From a virus, in the IMG/VR virus record IMGVR_UViG_3300021963_000567, positions 1-26,384 of that record: DNA of 26,384 nt, one strand, 5' to 3'. Made by a program: the position numbers and the translations under genes. Position 1 is the stretch's first letter, and every line of letters begins with the position of its first letter. A model generated the notes under the pieces. It ran no database searches and was not told the DNA's origin. It worked only from the letters and a program-made list of their open reading frames with translations. Shown here one piece after another: positions 11,325-25,596 of the stretch.

Positions 11325-11813
11325 ATGGCAATTATAGATGCAAATGACATGTTTTTTACAGCGTTTGAACCGAAACAAGCAAACCGATTTATCCTGTACG
11401 CTGATGGAATCCCTAGCTATATGATCAAAGGCGTTAGCGCTGTAACATTAACGCAAGGTGAAGTAATTTTGAACCACATCAACATCTTACGTAAAGTTAA
11501 AGGTAAGAGTGTTTGGGGTGACGTTACAATGACCTTGCATGATCCAATCACTCCATCTGGAGCTCAAACAATTATGGAATGGGTTCGTTTATCACATGAA
11601 TCAGTAACAGGTAGAGATGGTTACTCTGACTTCTACAAGAAAGATTTAGTAATCAATGCTTTAGGACCTGTTGGTGATGTCGTTGCTGAATGGGTACTTA
11701 AAGGCGCGTTCGTTAAAGATGCTAACTTCGGTGAATATAACTGGGATACTGAAAATACTGCTATCAACATCACCATGACATTAGCTATTGATTACGCTAT
11801 TTTAAACTTCTAA
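11325..11813 (+). CDS. Tail tube protein (gp19-like), 162 residues
   Basis: This is the inner tube subunit that stacks on the baseplate inside the sheath. The 162-residue length matches T4 gp19 (163). Features typical of the T4_gp19 family are NRFILYADGIPSYMIKGVSA near residues 21-40, VKGKSVWGDVTMTLHDPI (about 58-75), MEWVRLSHESVTGRDGYSDF (about 84-103), DLVINALGPVGDVVAEWVLK and an end NITMTLAIDYAILNF. Codon use is noticeably less AT-biased than in the fibre genes, as expected for an abundant protein (an impression, not computed). It lies between the sheath gene and an intrinsic terminator. Confidence 0.95.
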   Translation: MAIIDANDMFFTAFEPKQANRFILYADGIPSYMIKGVSAVTLTQGEVILNHINILRKVKGKSVWGDVTMTLHDPITPSGAQTIMEWVRLSHESVTGRDGYSDFYKKDLVINALGPVGDVVAEWVLKGAFVKDANFGEYNWDTENTAINITMTLAIDYAILNF

Positions 11814-11920: not shown

Positions 11921-12655
11921 ATGGAAAACAAATTAAACATCCCAACAGAAGTTATTGAGTTACCTTCAAAAGGTATAATCTACCCAGAATCAAGTCCTCT
12001 ATCAAGTGGTAAAATTGAAATGAAATATATGACCGCTAAAGAAGAAGACATTTTAACTAACCAGTCTTATATCCAAAAAGGAACAGTGTTAGACGAATTA
12101 ATTAAATCACTTATTATGACACCAGGTGCTAAATTTGAGGATTTAATTGTAGGAGATAAAAACGCTTTATTAGTAGCCGCTCGTATTTTAGGTTATGGTA
12201 AAGATTACACTTTTACTTATGATGGTGAAGAGCAAACAGTTGATTTATCACTTATTGAAAATAAGCCTTTAGATGAAGAATTATTTGAAAAAGGAGTAAA
12301 TGAATTTTCTTATACTCTTCCATCAACAGGTACTGAAATCAAATTTAAACTTCTTACAGGTGTTGATGAGAAAAAAATTAATGCTGAATTAGAAGGAATT
12401 AGAAAAGTAAACAAATTTGCTTCTCCAGAATTATCAACTCGATTGAAGTATATGATTATCTCTGTTAATGGTAACACAGATACTAAAACCATTAGAGAAT
12501 TTGTAGATAACCATTTGTTAGCGCGTGATTCTAGAGCATTTAGAGAATATATTAAGAAATTCCAGCCCGACGTGGATTTGACCTTTTTTCCCGACGGGAG
12601 CGACTCAAAAGTTGACATTCCCGTTGGACTTAAGTTTTTTTGGCCTGACGCTTGA
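11921..12655 (+). CDS. gp26-like baseplate/tape-measure chaperone, short form (244 residues)
   Basis: The N-terminus IPTEVIELPSKGIIYPESSP, then GKIEMKYMTAKEEDILTNQ and LIKSLIM, is characteristic of the T4_baseplate (gp26-like) family. The middle has DKNALLVAARILGYGKDYTF, and the C-terminus reads VDIPVGLKFFWPDA before TGA at 12653-12655, an ending I recognise from relatives. T4 gp26 acts in hub assembly together with the tape measure; the position immediately before the tape measure also matches lambda G and other tail chaperones. The last ~70 bases overlap a second open frame, entered by a +1 or -2 shift. The start follows a terminator and a candidate promoter; no Shine-Dalgarno is visible. 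Confidence 0.85.
   Translation: MENKLNIPTEVIELPSKGIIYPESSPLSSGKIEMKYMTAKEEDILTNQSYIQKGTVLDELIKSLIMTPGAKFEDLIVGDKNALLVAARILGYGKDYTFTYDGEEQTVDLSLIENKPLDEELFEKGVNEFSYTLPSTGTEIKFKLLTGVDEKKINAELEGIRKVNKFASPELSTRLKYMIISVNGNTDTKTIREFVDNHLLARDSRAFREYIKKFQPDVDLTFFPDGSDSKVDIPVGLKFFWPDA
12582..12655 (+). other. Probable programmed frameshift window (+1 or -2)
   Basis: Only here are both the gp26-like frame and the next frame open: the second frame has a TGA at 12579-12581 and the first ends at 12655. Two slippery candidates lie inside: T6 at 12584-12589, read TTT TTT CCC, and T7 at 12635-12641, read AAG TTT TTT TGG. At the T7, Phe tRNA can re-pair on TTT after a +1 or a -2 slip, and translation continues as GLTLEVAKQYRV. 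A plain -1 slip would hit TGA at once, so +1 or -2 is required. Confidence 0.65.
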
Positions 12656-12926
12656 GGTAGCCAAACAGTATAGGGTTAACTTATTCACTCAAATACACCA
12701 GATAGTATTTCATGGCCAGGGTGGTTATGACTGGAATACAGTTTATAACATGCCTATTTGGCTTAGAAAATTCACATTCCATCAGATGAATACTTATTAT
12801 GAAGAACAAAATAAGTCTCAATCTGGTGGAGATATGAATTCTCAAATTAGTCAAATTAAGAGTGGTAAAGTACAAATACCTGAGCATTTTAGAGGAAAAT
12901 TAAATCACAAAGCTCCAAAGTATTAA
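12612..12926 (+). CDS. Frameshift partner of the gp26-like protein (gp51/T-like extension)
   Basis: The frame is open from 12582 to TAA at 12924-12926. There is no ATG before 12750, which falls inside the conserved part (YNMPIWLRKFTFHQM), so independent initiation would need a TTG (12612 or 12624), unlike every other gene here. The product, from about FFGLTLEVAKQYRVNLFTQI through HGQGGYDWNTVYNMPIWLRK to a lysine-rich end, resembles small proteins encoded after gp26-like genes in T4-like phages; an equivalence to T4 gp51 is suggested, not shown. I infer it is made as a C-terminal extension of the gp26-like protein, in the manner of lambda gpGT, and binds the tape measure. The given start is nominal. 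Confidence 0.65.
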   Translation: MTFPLDLSFFGLTLEVAKQYRVNLFTQIHQIVFHGQGGYDWNTVYNMPIWLRKFTFHQMNTYYEEQNKSQSGGDMNSQISQIKSGKVQIPEHFRGKLNHKAPKY

Positions 12927-12950: not shown

Positions 12951-15900
12951 ATGGCATTAAATCCTAAAGAAGCACAAGAATTAGCGAAGTTACTAAGAGA
13001 AATCGAAACGTTATCTAGAAGTTTAGGTAAAAATATTGATTTATCAGCTTTTAGTGATTTAGAAAAATCAGCTTATGCTATTAGAGCTACTGTTAAGAGT
13101 TTAAGAAATGAATTTAAATCGCTTAATAGTGATTTAGATGATCTTGTTGACACCTTTGGAGATTTAGTTAAAAAAATTAAGTCTGCTGAAGAAGGAAGTA
13201 AAAAAACTATTAAAGTCTTTGACGGATTCAATGATATAGCTCGTAAAATATATGACCATCAAAGAGGTTATAATGAGTTAAGTGAGGATGATGCTGATTT
13301 ATTAGTCACAAAATTAAAAAATCAAAAGAAAAGACTAGAAGATCTACAAAAACAATTAAAGTTAGAAGAAGATCACTTTGAGAAAAAGAAAAAAGACAAC
13401 ACTCTTACTCAAGATGCTTTAGATGAAATTAATGATAAAATTAAAGAAAATCAAAAAGCTCAAGAAAAAATAAATGATCTTTTATCTGACCAAAATGATG
13501 AATATAGTACTTTACTTTCAAAAGCTAAAAGTATACGCCAACAGCAAGAAAATCTCCAAAAAGCATTTGGTTTAAGTGGAGCAGCTATTGATGGTGTAGG
13601 TAAAGCTTTTAATAAAATAGGTTTAGGTAGTTTAGCTGATCAATTAGGCCTTGATAAAGCTAAAGCTAAAATGAAAGACACCGCTGATCGAATTACTGAC
13701 GGTGGTAAGAAAGGAGCCCATCTTGTAACCCAATTCAGAGTTTTAGGAGCAGGTATGGGTTCTTTAGGTAAATCTATAATGAAAAACCTAACTGATCCTT
13801 TAGTCTTAGCAGGAATAGCAGCTAAAGCAGTATCAACAGGAGTAGGTTTAATTAAAAAAGGTTTTTCACTACTGAAAGGAGGCATTAGCTCAGTAGTAGG
13901 TTTTGTTCAAAAACTATGGGGAATGGCAGACCAATTCGCTGCTGTCTTCGAAAAATACGCTAAAGCTGGTCAGTTCGCAGCCCAAAACTTCAGTGCTATG
14001 GGAGCGGGAATTGGCAAAATAACCAGTGGTTTAAACGCCGCTGCCGCCGCTGACCCATTTATGCGAGTAGCAGAAGCTGGTCCCGCACTTAAAGCAATAG
14101 TAGACGGTGTAGGTATATTCAAGGCTAATATGACAAAATCTACAAAAGAAGCTCATGACTTCTCTTATTGGCTAGGATACTCAGCTGATGAAACAGGTAG
14201 ACTTTACAGATTATCAGCTACTAATAATAAAACAATGACTGATACCTCAGCTGAAATGAGGGCTCAAGGTTATTTGTTAAATAAACAGCACAAAACTTCT
14301 TTAGATCTTAGAAAAGTAGAAAAAGTTGCTCTCTCATCTAGTTTAGCTACTAACGCTACTTTAAAAAATAATACTAAAGCTTTATTTGAAGCCTCATTTT
14401 ACGCTACCAAATTAGGTATGACTTTAGATGAAATGAGAGCTAGTGCGGCTGGAGTATTAGACTTTGAATCAAGCATATCGGCCCAATTAGAATACCAAAC
14501 TTTATCTGGAAAAGAACTTAATTTAGATGCTCTTCAACAAGCTACTGCTGCCCATGATACAGTGGGTATAGCTAGAGAAATGAATAAGTTGGTAGAAGAA
14601 CATGGTGCAGGTTTATTAGAGAATAAGTTTATTGCTGATTCTTTTGGTAAAGCATTAAATGTAAGTGGTGATAAAGCGTTGGAGATGTATGAAAACATAA
14701 GACTTGCTAACCAATTAGGAGAAGACCAAGCTGATGTTGAAGCGACCATCGCAAGGATGATGAAAGAACAAGGTATCTCTAGAGAGGAAGCTGCTAAAAG
14801 AATATCAAAACAAGATATAGCTAATTCATTAGCTGCCTCTAAAAGAGCAGAAGCCATGTCTCGTGCTTTAGAAGATTTTAGAGATTACATGGCTACAAGA
14901 TTGTGGCCATTATTTAGAGCAGTATTCAGCCCAGCTAACATAAAGATGTTCATGACTGTAATAAGCGGTATGAGACCTGTATTTGTTGAATTAGGTAAAG
15001 CAATTACTGCTTTCTTCTCACCTAAGAGCGCAGGGGCAATGACTGATGTTCTTAAAAACGATGTTATGCCTGCTATATTAGACTTAGCTAAAATGCTAAC
15101 TGAAGTAGCAGGTGGTGCTGGTGAAACTCTTTATAATATAATTAAATCTATAGGACCTGTTATTAAAACAGATGTTATACCTATAGTAAAATACTTAGGC
15201 GGTATTATTAAAGAACTAGCCCCTACAATAGGAATATTAGTTAAATCCTTAGCTGGAGGAGTAGTTAGTATACTTAAAAAAGTAAATGAAAATAAAGAAG
15301 AGATAAAAGAATTTATTGTAACTATAGCTAATAAACTTAAAGACGTTTTTGATTTTATTAGTGGCCATTTGAAAGAAATAGGAATGGCTGTTTTAGCTTT
15401 AAAAGGTTTTAGCATATTAAAATCCTCAGGTGTATTTGAACTTGTTAAAATGGCAGCTGGGGTAGCTAGATTAGGTAGAGGAGCCAATCCTTTATCTCCA
15501 TTGTTTGTTAAAGACACATCAGGTATGGCGTCAGGAGATAAATGGAAAAACTTACTTTCATTTGGTTTAGCAGGAAATAAAGGAAAAGGTGGTGCTTCAC
15601 CAACAACCGCAGCCACATCTACAGTATCTACAATAAAATCTACTTTAGGTGGAGCAATGGAACGAGGATCATCTCCTATGAATCCTTTATTTGTTAAAGA
15701 TGTAAGCAGTATTGGAGGAGCAGGAGTAGCTAAAGATGTAGCAGCATTAAAATCAGCTAACCCAGGAATGACCTCATCAGCAGCATTAAATCAAATTCGT
15801 GGGGGATTTGGAGGGGGTGCTTCCGCAGCTGGAGCCGCTGGAAGTGCTGGTGGTGCTGCTAGCAATATTGCTGGAGCCGCTGGAGGAGCTAGTAGTGTCG

Positions 15901-18797
15901 CTGTCCCTAATGGAGCTGATAAAGCTGGTAGTAAACTAGGACAATTTGGTAAAACAATGGGAAATGCAGCTGGAGATTTACTAAAAGCCGCTGCTGCTAT
16001 ACTCATAATAGCTGGAGCTTTATATGTAGCTGCTAAAGCATTCCAAGAATTTGCTTTAGTTGATTGGGAAGACATTGGAAAAGGAATTGTAACTTTAATA
16101 GCATTAGGAGGCGCAGTTTTTCTTCTTAGTAAATTTTTAGGCAATGGACAAGTATTAGTAGCCTCAGCTGCTATGCTTATAATGGCTGGAGCGTTATGGG
16201 TTATGGGTAAAGCTATACAAGAATTTACAAATTTAGAACTTGGTGATTTAGCATTAGCAACTGGAGCTTTACTAGTACTAACAGGTGTAATGCTTGGATT
16301 AGGAGCAGTTATGATGTCTGGAATTGGAGCAGCGGCTTTTTTTAGTGGTGTAGCTGCCTTATTAGCTATGGGAGCAGCATTATTTGTTGTAGCCGCTGGA
16401 TTAGATGCCTTAATAAAAGTTGTTGGGGGAGGTAGATTAGAGACTTTAGGTACTGACTTAGGTAAAGGTCTTGAAGATTTAACAACAGGATTAAAAGATG
16501 TTAAATTTGATGAATTAGAAAGTGTGTTTGAAGGCATAGAAGATGCTTTTGATGAATTAGATGTAGATGATCTTTTAGCCTTTAGTGAACTAGCCGGAGC
16601 CAGTTTAGCTGGCGCAGCTCGAAACTTATTGAATGGAATCCAAGAATTAGCTAAATTAGACACAAACTCAGAAACTTTAAAAATAGATAAAGGAGAGTTC
16701 TCATCAAAATTAGCGGCGTATTTTGAACAATTAGAAGGTGTATTTGATGAAGTAGAAGATGCTATTGATGAATTAGATATAGATAATCTTATTAAATTTG
16801 CTGACCTAGCTGGAAAAAGTATATCATCTGCTGTTCGCTCTTTATATAGAGGTATAGAAGAGATGGGAAAATTTAAAATTGAAGGAAAATCATCTTCTGA
16901 AGTTATACATACATTAGCCCAAGTAGAGCTTATTGTTGATGAATTTGAAGATGTTCTTGGTGAATTAGATTTTGACCAACTAGAAAATTTTAGTAAAATG
17001 TCATCATCTGGATTAGTGACAGCCGCTTCAGTCCTTAAACAAGGGATTGAAACAATGCAAAAAGAACTCCCAGGTATGGTTATTAATGAGGATCAATTAA
17101 AGAAAGTTCAAGAATCATTTATAAAACTTACAAAAACTTTTAATGTCTTAAGACTTGATAATATCACTAAATTCGCTGAATTATCTAAATCTGGGTTAGA
17201 AGATGCTGCTTTAAAGTTTAAAACAGCTATTGAAACATTAGGTAATATGACTTTTGATGTTTCAGAAGAGAGCACTGAAAAGATTAAAACAGCATTTAAA
17301 ACCCTTTCAGAAACATTTACATCATCAGGATTAGATAATATTATTAAATTTGCTGAATTATCTAAAGGCGATTTAGTAGGAGCAGCTACTAATTTTAAAT
17401 TAGGTGTAGAAGCCTTTGCTAATCTTACTTTCGCGGCTATTGCCCCAGATAAGCAAAAAGCTATGACTGATGCATTTGCTCAATTTGACGCTGTTATAGG
17501 TACATTATCAATGGATAATATACTTAAATTCGCTGAGTTAGCTAAAAGTAGTCTAGCTAATGCTGCTACTAACTTCCAATCCGGTGTAAATTCTCTTAAT
17601 CAAATAGGAGCATCAATGAAAGATGCTGACTTCTCAGGCATTAAAAACTTACAAAAACCAATTGAGGAATTACAATTAGCTTTTGGAGGAGCTGATTCAA
17701 AGATATTTGATTTTTTAAATAGTTTTGCTAAATTAGAATTAAAAGATTTTGATAAAAAAACAACTGATTTTAAAAATGCTATAACTAAAATTAATGAATT
17801 AGGCAACAGTTTTTATACTATGGGACCTGTCCAACCAGGTACAGAAGAAGCTAATCCGTTTCAAGGTATTCAAGATATGTTTGAAGACTTAAATGACGCG
17901 TTAGGAGGAGGTATTGCTAGTGTGACAGATTTCCTGTCAAAAGATTTCTCTGGTCTAGATAAATCAGTAAGTGGATTTATAAAAGGTATAAAAAGATTAA
18001 CTTCAACAGATGAGAAAGAAGGACTTGGAAAACCAGACATGAGTGTTATTAAACAATTCTTTACAGACTTATCTACAGTATTTGCTGGAACAAATTTAGA
18101 AGCATTTACTGCTTTTGCTGAAGGTAATTTTGAAAAACTTCCTAAAAATACATCATTACTTAAACAAGGAATGGATAGCATAAACGCAATCACAGTAAGT
18201 GATGCTCTTGCTCAATTAATTAATCTATTACCACAATTTAGTTCTCAACTTAATTCTTTAGGTAGTTTTGATTCAACTAAAATAATAACATTATCAGAAG
18301 CTATATGTAAATTATATGAATCATTAAATAAATTTAATGAAACCTTAACTAATCTTAAAGGAAATGATATTAGTTCTTTATTAAGTTCTATAACTAGTTT
18401 AAATAGTGCTTTAGCTAATATTAAATCAACAGCAGGAAGCCAGATGCAGTATGGAGTTCCTTTAATGCAAGATGGTGTTATTCAAGTTCAAGACAGTAAT
18501 CTTAACCCTAACGGTGGTTTAGTTATTTCTAAATACCAAAAAGGACAATTACAACCTGTAGCTCAAGGTATTAAAGAAGACAATGTTTATTTAACACCTA
18601 ATAGACCTTCATCTGGAGGTGGTAGTACTACTGTAACTCAAGATAATTCTCAAGTAGTAGCCGCTATACAAGCATTAACAGCTGCTATAACTAATAGTAA
18701 TAAAGAAGTAGCTATTAACTTAAACGGTCAAACTGTAGGTAAACTTATTGTTCCTACAATAGTAGAAGAAGTGAAAAAACAAGCTGTTAATCTTTAA
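12951..18797 (+). CDS. Tail tape measure protein, 1948 residues
   Basis: By far the longest gene, it follows the chaperone pair, the usual place for the tape measure that fixes tail length and is ejected into the host. In order: a charged coiled coil (about 5-205); Gly/Ala-rich and amphipathic helices (206-330); a helical domain with many Ala/Leu (330-700); a low-complexity region holding a duplicated NPLSPLFVKD / NPLFVKD block (about 846 and 907) and an Ala-Gly-Ser stretch (about 952-983); a strongly hydrophobic region (about 1004-1160) with four or five potential membrane helices such as AAAAILIIAGALYVAAKAF; about ten degenerate 60-71-residue repeats (about 1190-1800); and a C-terminal domain with QDGVIQVQD and NLNGQTVGKLIVPTIV. 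The hydrophobic block could help cross the inner membrane. Large minus-strand open frames here are composition shadows. Confidence 0.92.
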   Translation: MALNPKEAQELAKLLREIETLSRSLGKNIDLSAFSDLEKSAYAIRATVKSLRNEFKSLNSDLDDLVDTFGDLVKKIKSAEEGSKKTIKVFDGFNDIARKIYDHQRGYNELSEDDADLLVTKLKNQKKRLEDLQKQLKLEEDHFEKKKKDNTLTQDALDEINDKIKENQKAQEKINDLLSDQNDEYSTLLSKAKSIRQQQENLQKAFGLSGAAIDGVGKAFNKIGLGSLADQLGLDKAKAKMKDTADRITDGGKKGAHLVTQFRVLGAGMGSLGKSIMKNLTDPLVLAGIAAKAVSTGVGLIKKGFSLLKGGISSVVGFVQKLWGMADQFAAVFEKYAKAGQFAAQNFSAMGAGIGKITSGLNAAAAADPFMRVAEAGPALKAIVDGVGIFKANMTKSTKEAHDFSYWLGYSADETGRLYRLSATNNKTMTDTSAEMRAQGYLLNKQHKTSLDLRKVEKVALSSSLATNATLKNNTKALFEASFYATKLGMTLDEMRASAAGVLDFESSISAQLEYQTLSGKELNLDALQQATAAHDTVGIAREMNKLVEEHGAGLLENKFIADSFGKALNVSGDKALEMYENIRLANQLGEDQADVEATIARMMKEQGISREEAAKRISKQDIANSLAASKRAEAMSRALEDFRDYMATRLWPLFRAVFSPANIKMFMTVISGMRPVFVELGKAITAFFSPKSAGAMTDVLKNDVMPAILDLAKMLTEVAGGAGETLYNIIKSIGPVIKTDVIPIVKYLGGIIKELAPTIGILVKSLAGGVVSILKKVNENKEEIKEFIVTIANKLKDVFDFISGHLKEIGMAVLALKGFSILKSSGVFELVKMAAGVARLGRGANPLSPLFVKDTSGMASGDKWKNLLSFGLAGNKGKGGASPTTAATSTVSTIKSTLGGAMERGSSPMNPLFVKDVSSIGGAGVAKDVAALKSANPGMTSSAALNQIRGGFGGGASAAGAAGSAGGAASNIAGAAGGASSVAVPNGADKAGSKLGQFGKTMGNAAGDLLKAAAAILIIAGALYVAAKAFQEFALVDWEDIGKGIVTLIALGGAVFLLSKFLGNGQVLVASAAMLIMAGALWVMGKAIQEFTNLELGDLALATGALLVLTGVMLGLGAVMMSGIGAAAFFSGVAALLAMGAALFVVAAGLDALIKVVGGGRLETLGTDLGKGLEDLTTGLKDVKFDELESVFEGIEDAFDELDVDDLLAFSELAGASLAGAARNLLNGIQELAKLDTNSETLKIDKGEFSSKLAAYFEQLEGVFDEVEDAIDELDIDNLIKFADLAGKSISSAVRSLYRGIEEMGKFKIEGKSSSEVIHTLAQVELIVDEFEDVLGELDFDQLENFSKMSSSGLVTAASVLKQGIETMQKELPGMVINEDQLKKVQESFIKLTKTFNVLRLDNITKFAELSKSGLEDAALKFKTAIETLGNMTFDVSEESTEKIKTAFKTLSETFTSSGLDNIIKFAELSKGDLVGAATNFKLGVEAFANLTFAAIAPDKQKAMTDAFAQFDAVIGTLSMDNILKFAELAKSSLANAATNFQSGVNSLNQIGASMKDADFSGIKNLQKPIEELQLAFGGADSKIFDFLNSFAKLELKDFDKKTTDFKNAITKINELGNSFYTMGPVQPGTEEANPFQGIQDMFEDLNDALGGGIASVTDFLSKDFSGLDKSVSGFIKGIKRLTSTDEKEGLGKPDMSVIKQFFTDLSTVFAGTNLEAFTAFAEGNFEKLPKNTSLLKQGMDSINAITVSDALAQLINLLPQFSSQLNSLGSFDSTKIITLSEAICKLYESLNKFNETLTNLKGNDISSLLSSITSLNSALANIKSTAGSQMQYGVPLMQDGVIQVQDSNLNPNGGLVISKYQKGQLQPVAQGIKEDNVYLTPNRPSSGGGSTTVTQDNSQVVAAIQALTAAITNSNKEVAINLNGQTVGKLIVPTIVEEVKKQAVNL
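16525..18370 (+). repeat. About ten degenerate 60-71-residue repeats in the tape measure
   Basis: Units share F...E..[FL]..L..DN[IL]..FAEL[SA]...L..A[AT]..[FL]..GI..L. Examples are DELDIDNLIKFADLAGKS, LRLDNITKFAELSKSGL, SGLDNIIKFAELSKGDL and LSMDNILKFAELAKSSL. Unit starts fall near residues 1192, 1263, 1324, 1388, 1447, 1507, 1571, 1641, 1701 and 1761. The last four have diverged most. Confidence 0.7.
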
Positions 18798-24400: not shown

Positions 24401-25039
24401 ATTAACCAAACTAAAGTAACTGAAACAGTAGACACAAACCCAGAAGATTATGATGAAGTAATTTTGACCGATCCACCACCACCATCAACTCCAACAGAAA
24501 ATGAATCTAAACCAGGTACAACTAAACCATATATAGTTATAGGTGACTCAGGAAGTCCCACTATAAAAAGTTTCGCGAAAAAATCTGAATTAATTGGGGA
24601 CCAAGAAGGTGAAAAAAATCTATGGAAAGTAGGAGAAGACATAAATTGGTTAATCACAGCTTTAAAATCATTCTCTCCATCACCGGATGTGAAAATAGTA
24701 TTTGTTAGTATTGGTACTAATGGTGGATTTGGTAGTAGTAGCAAATTAGCTAACGCGTTAATGTCTGGATTAAAAGAAAAATTCCCAAATGCTAAGTATG
24801 CTTTTGTACAAGGAACTTGGGGTTGGGGCTATTTATCTGAGGAAAAGAATCCTGGGAAAGGATTTGATAAAGTAGAAACACCAAAAATAGTGACTAGTTT
24901 TTATAATCAGTTTAAAGATTTAGGAGCTATTATTATTGAACCTCCTATTGGTTATAGTACTACACATCCAAATAGAAAAACACCAACATTCCCTAAAATT
25001 GGTGAAGAAATGAATAGACTTATAGCTTTAAATAAATAA
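21467..25039 (+). CDS. Large baseplate hub-like protein with C-terminal SGNH-hydrolase-like domain (1190 residues)
   Basis: The N-terminal ~300 residues have the look of a phage hub domain: VPPPGITMASVKSLNRGTIR, EASIQLVCHNLYQLIIINIL, LLLEWGHTVYYDN, FFGLVKNFEWQAEENGSYTI and DVIESLKI. A second block (about 645-800) has YIGKTMHIYVNIQHIVNVLD and FLNKLLSDIGTALGSINKFD. A third (about 880-985) precedes a proline-rich linker (about 1003-1020). The last ~170 residues resemble an SGNH hydrolase: VIGDSG with Ser1028 (block I), VSIGTNGG with Gly1083 and Asn1085 (block III-like), and STTHP with His1167 (block V-like, without the usual Asp three residues before His). I infer a tail-borne esterase or lytic activity on envelope glycans. 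Hub assignment is moderately sure, hydrolase activity less so. The stop overlaps the next ATG by one base. Confidence 0.72.
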   Translation: MAILGESFKPWVIKQINVRQDKLSARNKDTDLLKYLTSRTAFLRLTSGVDISEDLLTYYKDYLPEGFATNVKGNELAKQYVLEAARFRPPGNTIDDPLQFTSGIGYNNINKSSYGFLSDPNYGLVPPPGITMASVKSLNRGTIREASIQLVCHNLYQLIIINILFLKLKYSLLLEWGHTVYYDNEGELKQDYDIPNLSPGFLDGEYDQISLLKTIAIQRQLSNGNYDAFFGLVKNFEWQAEENGSYTITISAISTGDVIESLKINTDFNPNTAGATPSFNKSTLHKIIGKTKDIIGSLKYVHGYNDGNSPDRLNTLAFTAKAGNIVNNRYNYRDYNDNDEIITNGTGSSMLADKEGFKASFPNLQVTQTKYGKSVSNDQYYIKLGTFLRLMEAFTLFYDNKKVIITEDNQRLGSPPVFFLDHDFDKHDCLTLPDQVTTDPTVALIPLTQPDATTVTNVDKYQIHKFPVIGKQGLKKYTTDPNNSEAYILDRQNTTSTSVLVRKNATPIPTGQAYDSFEAAWNALGFTGNQRKETYAWVDSNESNQGIEWVFGGGTSKVDLAAQTSLDTLWTNTPEGGGGKLLDWTTWSSRVIKIAPTIDPPTPSFDDTKIGNKADNNLQPADLRPGVSKRMIKKVTTKTETGNSGTLKDISLSFRTEDKYIGKTMHIYVNIQHIVNVLDDTIEEDGTVPLLPFLNKLLSDIGTALGSINKFDLDYDDETNTFSVVDAAVVPLKYAKEFGNSMAKFNINALNPGAIGGSKNNIIGAGGSFITNFSLKSEIYSSIGNAIALGAQSGNNEGAPPGSNASGISKMNEGIIDRLMTEKTNKIVTISPFSSSFTDATTKSFFEDYVFKLKATEAAGGLTPEDIDFYKSYVVDIYQHDLGFLTNNTGSKLPGSGFIPLNLQLTMDGLSGLIQYQTFEISENVLPPEYYKKLRFITTTIEHKISADKGWETTISTLGVPRSNDITKASISNDDLERINQTKVTETVDTNPEDYDEVILTDPPPPSTPTENESKPGTTKPYIVIGDSGSPTIKSFAKKSELIGDQEGEKNLWKVGEDINWLITALKSFSPSPDVKIVFVSIGTNGGFGSSSKLANALMSGLKEKFPNAKYAFVQGTWGWGYLSEEKNPGKGFDKVETPKIVTSFYNQFKDLGAIIIEPPIGYSTTHPNRKTPTFPKIGEEMNRLIALNK

Positions 25040-25596
25040 TGCCTTACGTACCTAAAAATAAAATCCAATCTGGTTTATTTGCTAATTTATCAACTCCACC
25101 TTATTTTAAAGATAAAAAAGGAGTTAGATACACAGGTGAATATTACAAACTATACAATGGTAAATTTTTTTCAGGAAAAGGACCTAACGATCCTAATACT
25201 AGTGAAATTTTTAAAATTGAAGACATTAGAGATCCTAGCCCAAGTTATATCACATCCCCTAAAGAATCAATACCTAGTCTTCTTTCAGTAAGTGTTCCAA
25301 CACCTCAAGATTATAAAAATGGGTTTTTTACTCGTTATTTTAGTGTTAAAAGAAATCAATATTTGTATTTTGAAATAAATAAAGACACATATAATAAGTT
25401 TCAACAGAAAAATAATAATGTGCCTTGGCAACTATATAGAGTTTTTTCTTTTAAATGGGAACTAACAGGGGATGTAAATAAAGTAGCTCAAATTAATAGA
25501 GATGTTACGTTGTTAACTGAAAAAAATGAAAAAGCATTTGGTTTAGGAAAACACTTAAAAGAAAACTGGACTCAATATTATAAAGAAAATCCTTAA
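25039..25596 (+). CDS. Conserved hypothetical phage protein downstream of the hub gene (185 residues)
   Basis: The product starts YVPKNKIQSGLFANLSTPPY and continues VRYTGEYYKLYNGKFFSGKG, then DYKNGFFTRYFSVKRNQYLY and VPWQLYRVFSFKWELTGDVN, ending with LGKHLKENWTQYYKENP. I recognise this pattern (Y.GYYHK.Y.G..ftGK.P, RYF.kr.n, W.ltG....v...Nr...L.ek) as a common uncharacterised protein beside baseplate genes in marine myovirus contigs. No catalytic motif, signal peptide or membrane segment is visible. Overlap of its ATG with the hub stop (TAATG) implies coupled translation and a tail or baseplate role. Confidence 0.7.
   Translation: MPYVPKNKIQSGLFANLSTPPYFKDKKGVRYTGEYYKLYNGKFFSGKGPNDPNTSEIFKIEDIRDPSPSYITSPKESIPSLLSVSVPTPQDYKNGFFTRYFSVKRNQYLYFEINKDTYNKFQQKNNNVPWQLYRVFSFKWELTGDVNKVAQINRDVTLLTEKNEKAFGLGKHLKENWTQYYKENP

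Follow-up and report, generated by a model that had tools for sequence, protein, structure and literature searches.

How the second of two overlapping reading frames lying between the tail tube and tape measure genes of this virus comes to be translated is the question raised by the locus described here. The window, meaning the whole analysed stretch of 26,384 nt (IMGVR_UViG_3300021963_000567), has ORF1 and ORF2 placed in succession between the tube and tape measure genes, as in lambda G/GT, with these features:

11325 to 11813, + strand: tail tube protein, gp19-like, directly upstream of the pair (phrog_4542, E 1.9e-20).
11921 to 12655, + strand: ORF1, gp26-like (PF12322, T4_baseplate), a putative short tail assembly chaperone, lambda G-like (from PF12322, phrog_150 and predicted fold).
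12582 to 12926, + strand: ORF2, a gp51-like C-terminal domain in the +1 frame (from IMG/VR homologues and a gp51 profile match).
12584 to 12590, + strand: TTT TTT C(CC) where the overlap begins, a possible second, subclade-specific +1 slip site (from cluster association and synonymous constraint).
12635 to 12641, + strand: T7, the proposed slip site, read in frame 0 as TTT TTT T(GG) (from UUU_Y conservation).
12642 to 12649, + strand: GGCCTGAC, a dual-coding stretch (from WPD codon bias in frame 0 and GLT in +1).
12653 to 12655, + strand: TGA stop of ORF1, itself not a shift signal (its identity and distance vary in relatives).
12951 to 18797, + strand: tape measure protein, directly downstream of the pair (phrog_4372 and phrog_58, tail length tape measure).

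We consider it highly likely, on comparative sequence grounds, that 11921-12926 is a single recoded tail-assembly-chaperone locus in which a +1 slip joins ORF1 to the gp51-like ORF2. More generally, in a large T4-like phage family, mostly of Bacteroidota, the ribosome very probably slips +1 at a T-run near the end of this tail-assembly gene.

Frame 0 at 12632-12655 reads AAG TTT TTT TGG CCT GAC GCT TGA, and the first-pass annotation had correctly placed the end of ORF1 at 12655, the opening of the other frame at 12582 and the T7 run at 12635-12641. The ORF2 frame opens right after a TGA (12579-12581) and, as had been pointed out, has no ATG before its conserved block, the first being at 12750; TTG codons are found at 12612 and 12624. 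Between the tube (11325-11813) and the tape measure (12951-18797) there is a gene pair arranged as in G/GT, ORF2 overlapping ORF1 in a different frame and having no separate start apart from those TTG codons. A +1 shift at the T-run gives 94 open codons, while a -1 shift runs for only 2 codons before a TGA, ending almost at once as had been predicted. After a +1 shift, reading of ORF2 would resume at GGC 12642, with the expected junction ...VGLK-FFGLTLEVAK..., and GGCCTGAC would be read as GGC CTG AC(N) (GLT) instead of the frame 0 (T)GG CCT GAC (WPD). Among the ORFs checked, in-frame TTT TTT T occurs only at 12635 and 25165; the second run (25165-25171) is located within an ORF at 25039-25596, and a 70-aa ORF overlaps there in another frame.

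ORF1 matches PF12322 at 26.9 bits, above the curated cutoff of 24.5, and the family is matched by 40 of 72 ORF1 relatives at E 0.01; a further match is phrog_150 (baseplate hub, E 4e-10). The two ORFs were modelled separately. The ORF1 model (pLDDT 94) has an N-terminal domain whose first two PDB matches, both modest over 80-89 residues, are YqbN (3klu, Z 5.3) and the HK97 tail assembly chaperone (2ob9, Z 4.8); among viral models, it matches T4-like baseplate hub assembly proteins. The predicted N-terminal domain weakly resembles tail assembly chaperones. For ORF2, the fold search returned nothing significant; its homologues in IMG/VR reach 64% identity and its profile matches cyanophage gp51 (E 2e-5, prob 77).

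Direct profile comparison between ORF1 and T4 was not significant, so that their relation depends on Pfam and on intermediates: ORF1 with the SP-15, LIS04, GXN1 and RM378 proteins (prob 99.8), these with cyanophage gp26 (95.1), cyanophage gp26 with T4 gp26 (95.8) and T4 gp26 with residues 4-200 of T4 gp51 (98.8). PF12322 covers residues 1-201 of T4 gp51, and the tail encoded in the -1 frame of cyanophages matches T4 gp51 197-253 (prob 97). At the position of ORF2, the annotations of immuto, SP-15 and RM378 carry truncated or start-shifted hypothetical genes (L162 4854-4964, L340 3312-3431, L165 3701-3877).

Scans of IMG/VR with ORF2, with ORF1 and with the ORF1 of immuto, Mel-JY01, LIS04 and RM378 collected several hundred loci. 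In this pooled set, at 327 of the 328 loci where a second ORF is detectable it occupies the +1 frame relative to the gp26-like gene, and the same arrangement is found in the cultured phages immuto, Mel-JY01, RM378, SP-15 and LIS04. Long T-runs are error-prone, which would suit a pseudogene or a sequencing artefact, but an arrangement shared by several hundred contigs and by cultured phages leaves this explanation practically no room; conservation excludes it. Eleven GTDB contigs, mostly binned with Flavobacteriales, were found later and had not been used in forming the rule: nine of the nine with a detectable ORF2 have it in +1, and TTT TTT T is present in all 10 that hold the site. A +1 programmed frameshift joining gp26-like and gp51-like frames before the tape measure, as the first-pass annotation proposed, is still the best reading, and the homologue comparison that it suggested, of T-run and relative frame, has come out in its favour.

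At the site itself, UUU is followed by U or C, with the +1 ORF open, in 326/326 scorable sites, compared to 12.6% of Phe codons elsewhere in ORF1. This UUU_Y count is a matter of consistency rather than proof, since the amino acids F-F/L-W largely imply it, and the T's alone are weak evidence because TTT codons are common here (79% of Phe codons). Stronger signals are that CCT and GAC are forced, that the +1 frame is open, that some loci have no start codon and that the site decays where the two ORFs are separated. In the 123 distinct T7-type sites, the 14 consecutive bases T7GGCCTGA are invariant save for single exceptions at both G's, position +15 (a +1 wobble position) is nearly random, and variation upstream tracks frame 0. 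Within the window group the Pro codon is CCT in 126/126 (expected 38%) and the third base of the Asp codon is C in 122/126 (expected 21%), both being minority choices elsewhere in ORF1. Translation of both WPD (frame 0) and GLT (+1) would predict such a bias; judged by these codon choices, both frames are constrained at GGCCTGAC. Taken as a whole, the sequence comparison confirms the observation as real and far beyond chance.

Upstream, the three codons before T7 show a third-base bias that exceeds the demands of frame 0. The codon before the T-run (window 12626-12634 region) ends in C in 100/126 relatives against 21 expected, the Gly codon two before the run is GGA/GGG-rich in relatives, and neither coding frame fully accounts for the upstream biases.

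The two ORFs could also be separate genes, ORF2 being expressed without fusion by internal initiation (e.g., at TTG 12624) or by termination-reinitiation. TTG or GTG is present upstream in the +1 frame at most loci, the window included, and a TTG at -11 in 102 of the 123 T7-type sites would serve this purpose, as would the ATG owned by ORF2 in one locus (L018) and by cyanophage gp51. However, the -11 TTG is a consequence of frame 0 Ile/Val-Gly codons, and separate genes would not need a conserved +1 register. Moreover, scanning from the last +1 stop to 12 codons past the site, we found 44 of 243 distinct sites to be without ATG, GTG or TTG in the +1 frame, many of them having a +1 stop 2 nt ahead of the T-run; ordinary internal initiation is therefore unavailable at those loci. 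We regard separate genes as improbable. An ATG of its own for the second gene was one of the observations named beforehand as speaking against a frameshift, and it was encountered only in L018, with an endonuclease gene between the ORFs, and in lineages with a -1 relation.

In L018, a GIY-YIG/NUMOD ORF (2347-2964) separates ORF1 from ORF2. Its site reads AGT TTC TTT TGG CCC GAT, in which SFFWPD is kept and TTT, CCT and GAC have changed synonymously, and relatives at 81-84% identity retain the TTTTTTTGGCCTGAC signature. This decay fits a release from dual-frame constraint, although as a single case, and the locus shows that expression of ORF2 apart from ORF1 can occur. No Rfam match to a group I intron was returned for L018. 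A second NUMOD3/DUF559 ORF (550-1401) is found between its tail tube gene and ORF1, so two homing-endonuclease-like insertions flank the chaperone gene.

The sequences show that the frame relation is conserved, that the codons permit slippage, that both frames are under selection and that start codons are missing at some loci, and ribosomal slippage is what we infer as the cause. The direction had been left as +1 or -2, and of the two -2 is disfavoured. A T7 run permits both -2 ribosomal slippage, as in Mu, and RNA-polymerase slippage, with products one Phe different from or identical to that of a +1 slip, but TTT CTT TGG, TTT CTA TGG and TTC TTT CGT, which lack both a homopolymer and cognate -2 re-pairing, still go with +1. 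Slippage of either of these kinds is accordingly very improbable in our view. In addition to these three (the last from GXN1), the sites observed were TTT TTT TGG, TTT TTT TAC, CTT TTT TGG, TTT TTT AGT (LIS04) and TTT TTT CAC (SP-15). As variants without a T-run speak against -2 and transcriptional slippage, we favour +1 ribosomal slippage of tRNA-Phe at UUU_Y.

Other signals were considered and rejected. The ORF1 stop is TGA, TAA or TAG among relatives, at varying distance from the site, which rules out a prfB-like shift at the stop codon. A shift at CCT was set aside as well: the forced +1 Leu codon fits a slip upstream of CCT, and RM378, GXN1 and LIS04 have no CCT. A -1 slippery heptamer (X XXY YYZ) does not suit the locus, as it would call for a second ORF in the -1 frame, which in the window closes after two codons. 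RNAalifold gave no consensus structure up- or downstream of the site, hence no conserved RNA stimulator was found; an upstream hairpin (ATCCC-AATT-GGGAT) has one covarying pair but, lacking a consensus structure, is not claimed.

With a +1 slip of tRNA-Phe as the preferred reading, most ribosomes would terminate at TGA 12653 and release the short chaperone. In a minority, peptidyl-tRNA-Phe on the UUU of UUU UUU UGG would slip +1 and pair anew with the UUU that overlaps it; these ribosomes would read on through GGC CUG ACG ... into ORF2, and their product would be a fusion protein of roughly 334 residues ending in a gp51-like helical tail. On the model of lambda gpG/gpGT, the tape measure protein may be coated by the short form, and tail tube subunits may be recruited by the rare long one; slippage efficiency and this division of labour are proposed here in the same conditional sense.

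The T7 run remains the proposed slip site, though within the subclade of the window it is perhaps not the sole one. There, the +1 frame opens (12582) two bases before an upstream TTT TTT CCC (12584-12592), and between that site and T7 it is open in 90% of subclade sequences, compared to 27% expected from synonymous shuffles. Synonymous constraint climbs from codon -15, right after the upstream site, while Mel-type relatives present no such constraint upstream of the T-run. Clusters at 80% identity are +1-open in 28/28 cases with the upstream site and 30/62 without (Fisher 2e-7), an association that weakens in coarser clusters (p 0.001 at 70% and 0.18 at 60% identity). The +1-open excess, the constraint and the cluster association together make a second slip site possible in this subclade. 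Shifting there might even take place mainly at TTT TTT C (12584-12590), or be shared between the two sites, with FF-PTGATQKLTFPLDLSFFGLT... replacing FF-GLT. We hold this to be rather unlikely, albeit the most credible alternative: the association is partly phylogenetic, and the upstream site is missing from many relatives, several of which have +1 stops between its position and the T-run. The T-run by the ORF1 end is the only candidate slip site common to all. Given the upstream TTG/GTG codons and the excess of open +1 frames (0.90 vs 0.27), either initiation or an upstream slip can contribute in the window subclade.

Lambda-type G/GT frameshifting is called widely conserved in long-tailed phages, T4 excepted (PMC5009743). 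T4-like chaperones have been identified since, some T4-like phages having a short gene and a fused gene (Vladimirov et al. 2022, as cited in PMC10885494), and poly-T -1 signals are mentioned for T4-like phage chaperones in PMC12846349. T4 shares the PF12322 family with the window ORF1 but employs a short gene plus a fused gene and no frameshift, where here +1 joins adjacent ORFs: in T4 (L332, NC_000866; 4480-5229 and 3803-4429) gp51 consists of a gp26-like domain (1-201) and the gp51 tail, permanently fused, beside a short gp26. In the cyanophage, KVP40 and Aeromonas 65.2 type, gp26 likewise ends in Phe-Phe codons at the gp51 junction, before further tail genes, yet gp51 follows U UUU UUC in the -1 frame. 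A -1 relation behind U UUU UUC or a T-run was found in 83/83 cyanophage-type loci (KVP40 included), plus 65.2 and SRB7757. These loci are consistent with the poly-T -1 signal mentioned in PMC12846349. In the -1 lineages (L333-L335, L338, L339, L342-L421, L422, L424) an in-frame U UUU UUC or T7 marks the end of gp26; the gp51 part of Aeromonas phage 65.2 is unannotated.

Similarly, the chaperones of lambda (gpG/gpGT), P2 and Mu pair a short protein with a frameshifted long one between tail tube and tape measure, but by -1 or -2 slippage and in non-homologous sequence. In bacteria, UUU_Ynn is described as having a particular tendency to shift +1, even where no stop codon follows, and the influenza shift cassette is UCC_UUU_CGU (PMC5009743). 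As in YopN-TyeA and this cassette, and in prfB with its CUU_U, the P-site tRNA would here slip +1 on a U-rich codon. GXN1 has UUU_CGU as in the influenza cassette; unlike prfB, with its A-site stop codon, the A-site codon here is mostly UGG.

The proposed link between gp26/gp51 and lambda G/GT is thus sound but already published (via PMC10885494 and PMC12846349), and what looks new is the +1 use in this chaperone family, its direction differing by lineage at the same Phe-Phe codons. We found no description of +1 use in the T4-like chaperone family in the literature searched, in which the 2022 claims are represented second-hand. Probably, then, the Phe-Phe pair of one chaperone family serves +1 shifting at UUU_Y in phages of Bacteroidota, Microcystis, Rhodothermus, Bacillus, Listeria and Streptococcus, and -1 shifting at U UUU UUC in cyanophages and phages of Vibrio, Aeromonas and the Desulfovibrio group, with gene duplication in T4 and one subclade with two tandem +1 sites.

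T4-type chaperones would therefore apparently use +1 frameshifting even though T4 is counted as the exception, which would also explain the unannotated or mis-started gp51-like ORFs in immuto, SP-15, LIS04 and RM378. The loci would constitute a large natural collection of UUU_Y +1 sites that lack a stop codon, and the family may offer a natural series for comparing the direction of the shift and the cases in which duplication or a mobile gene has taken its place.
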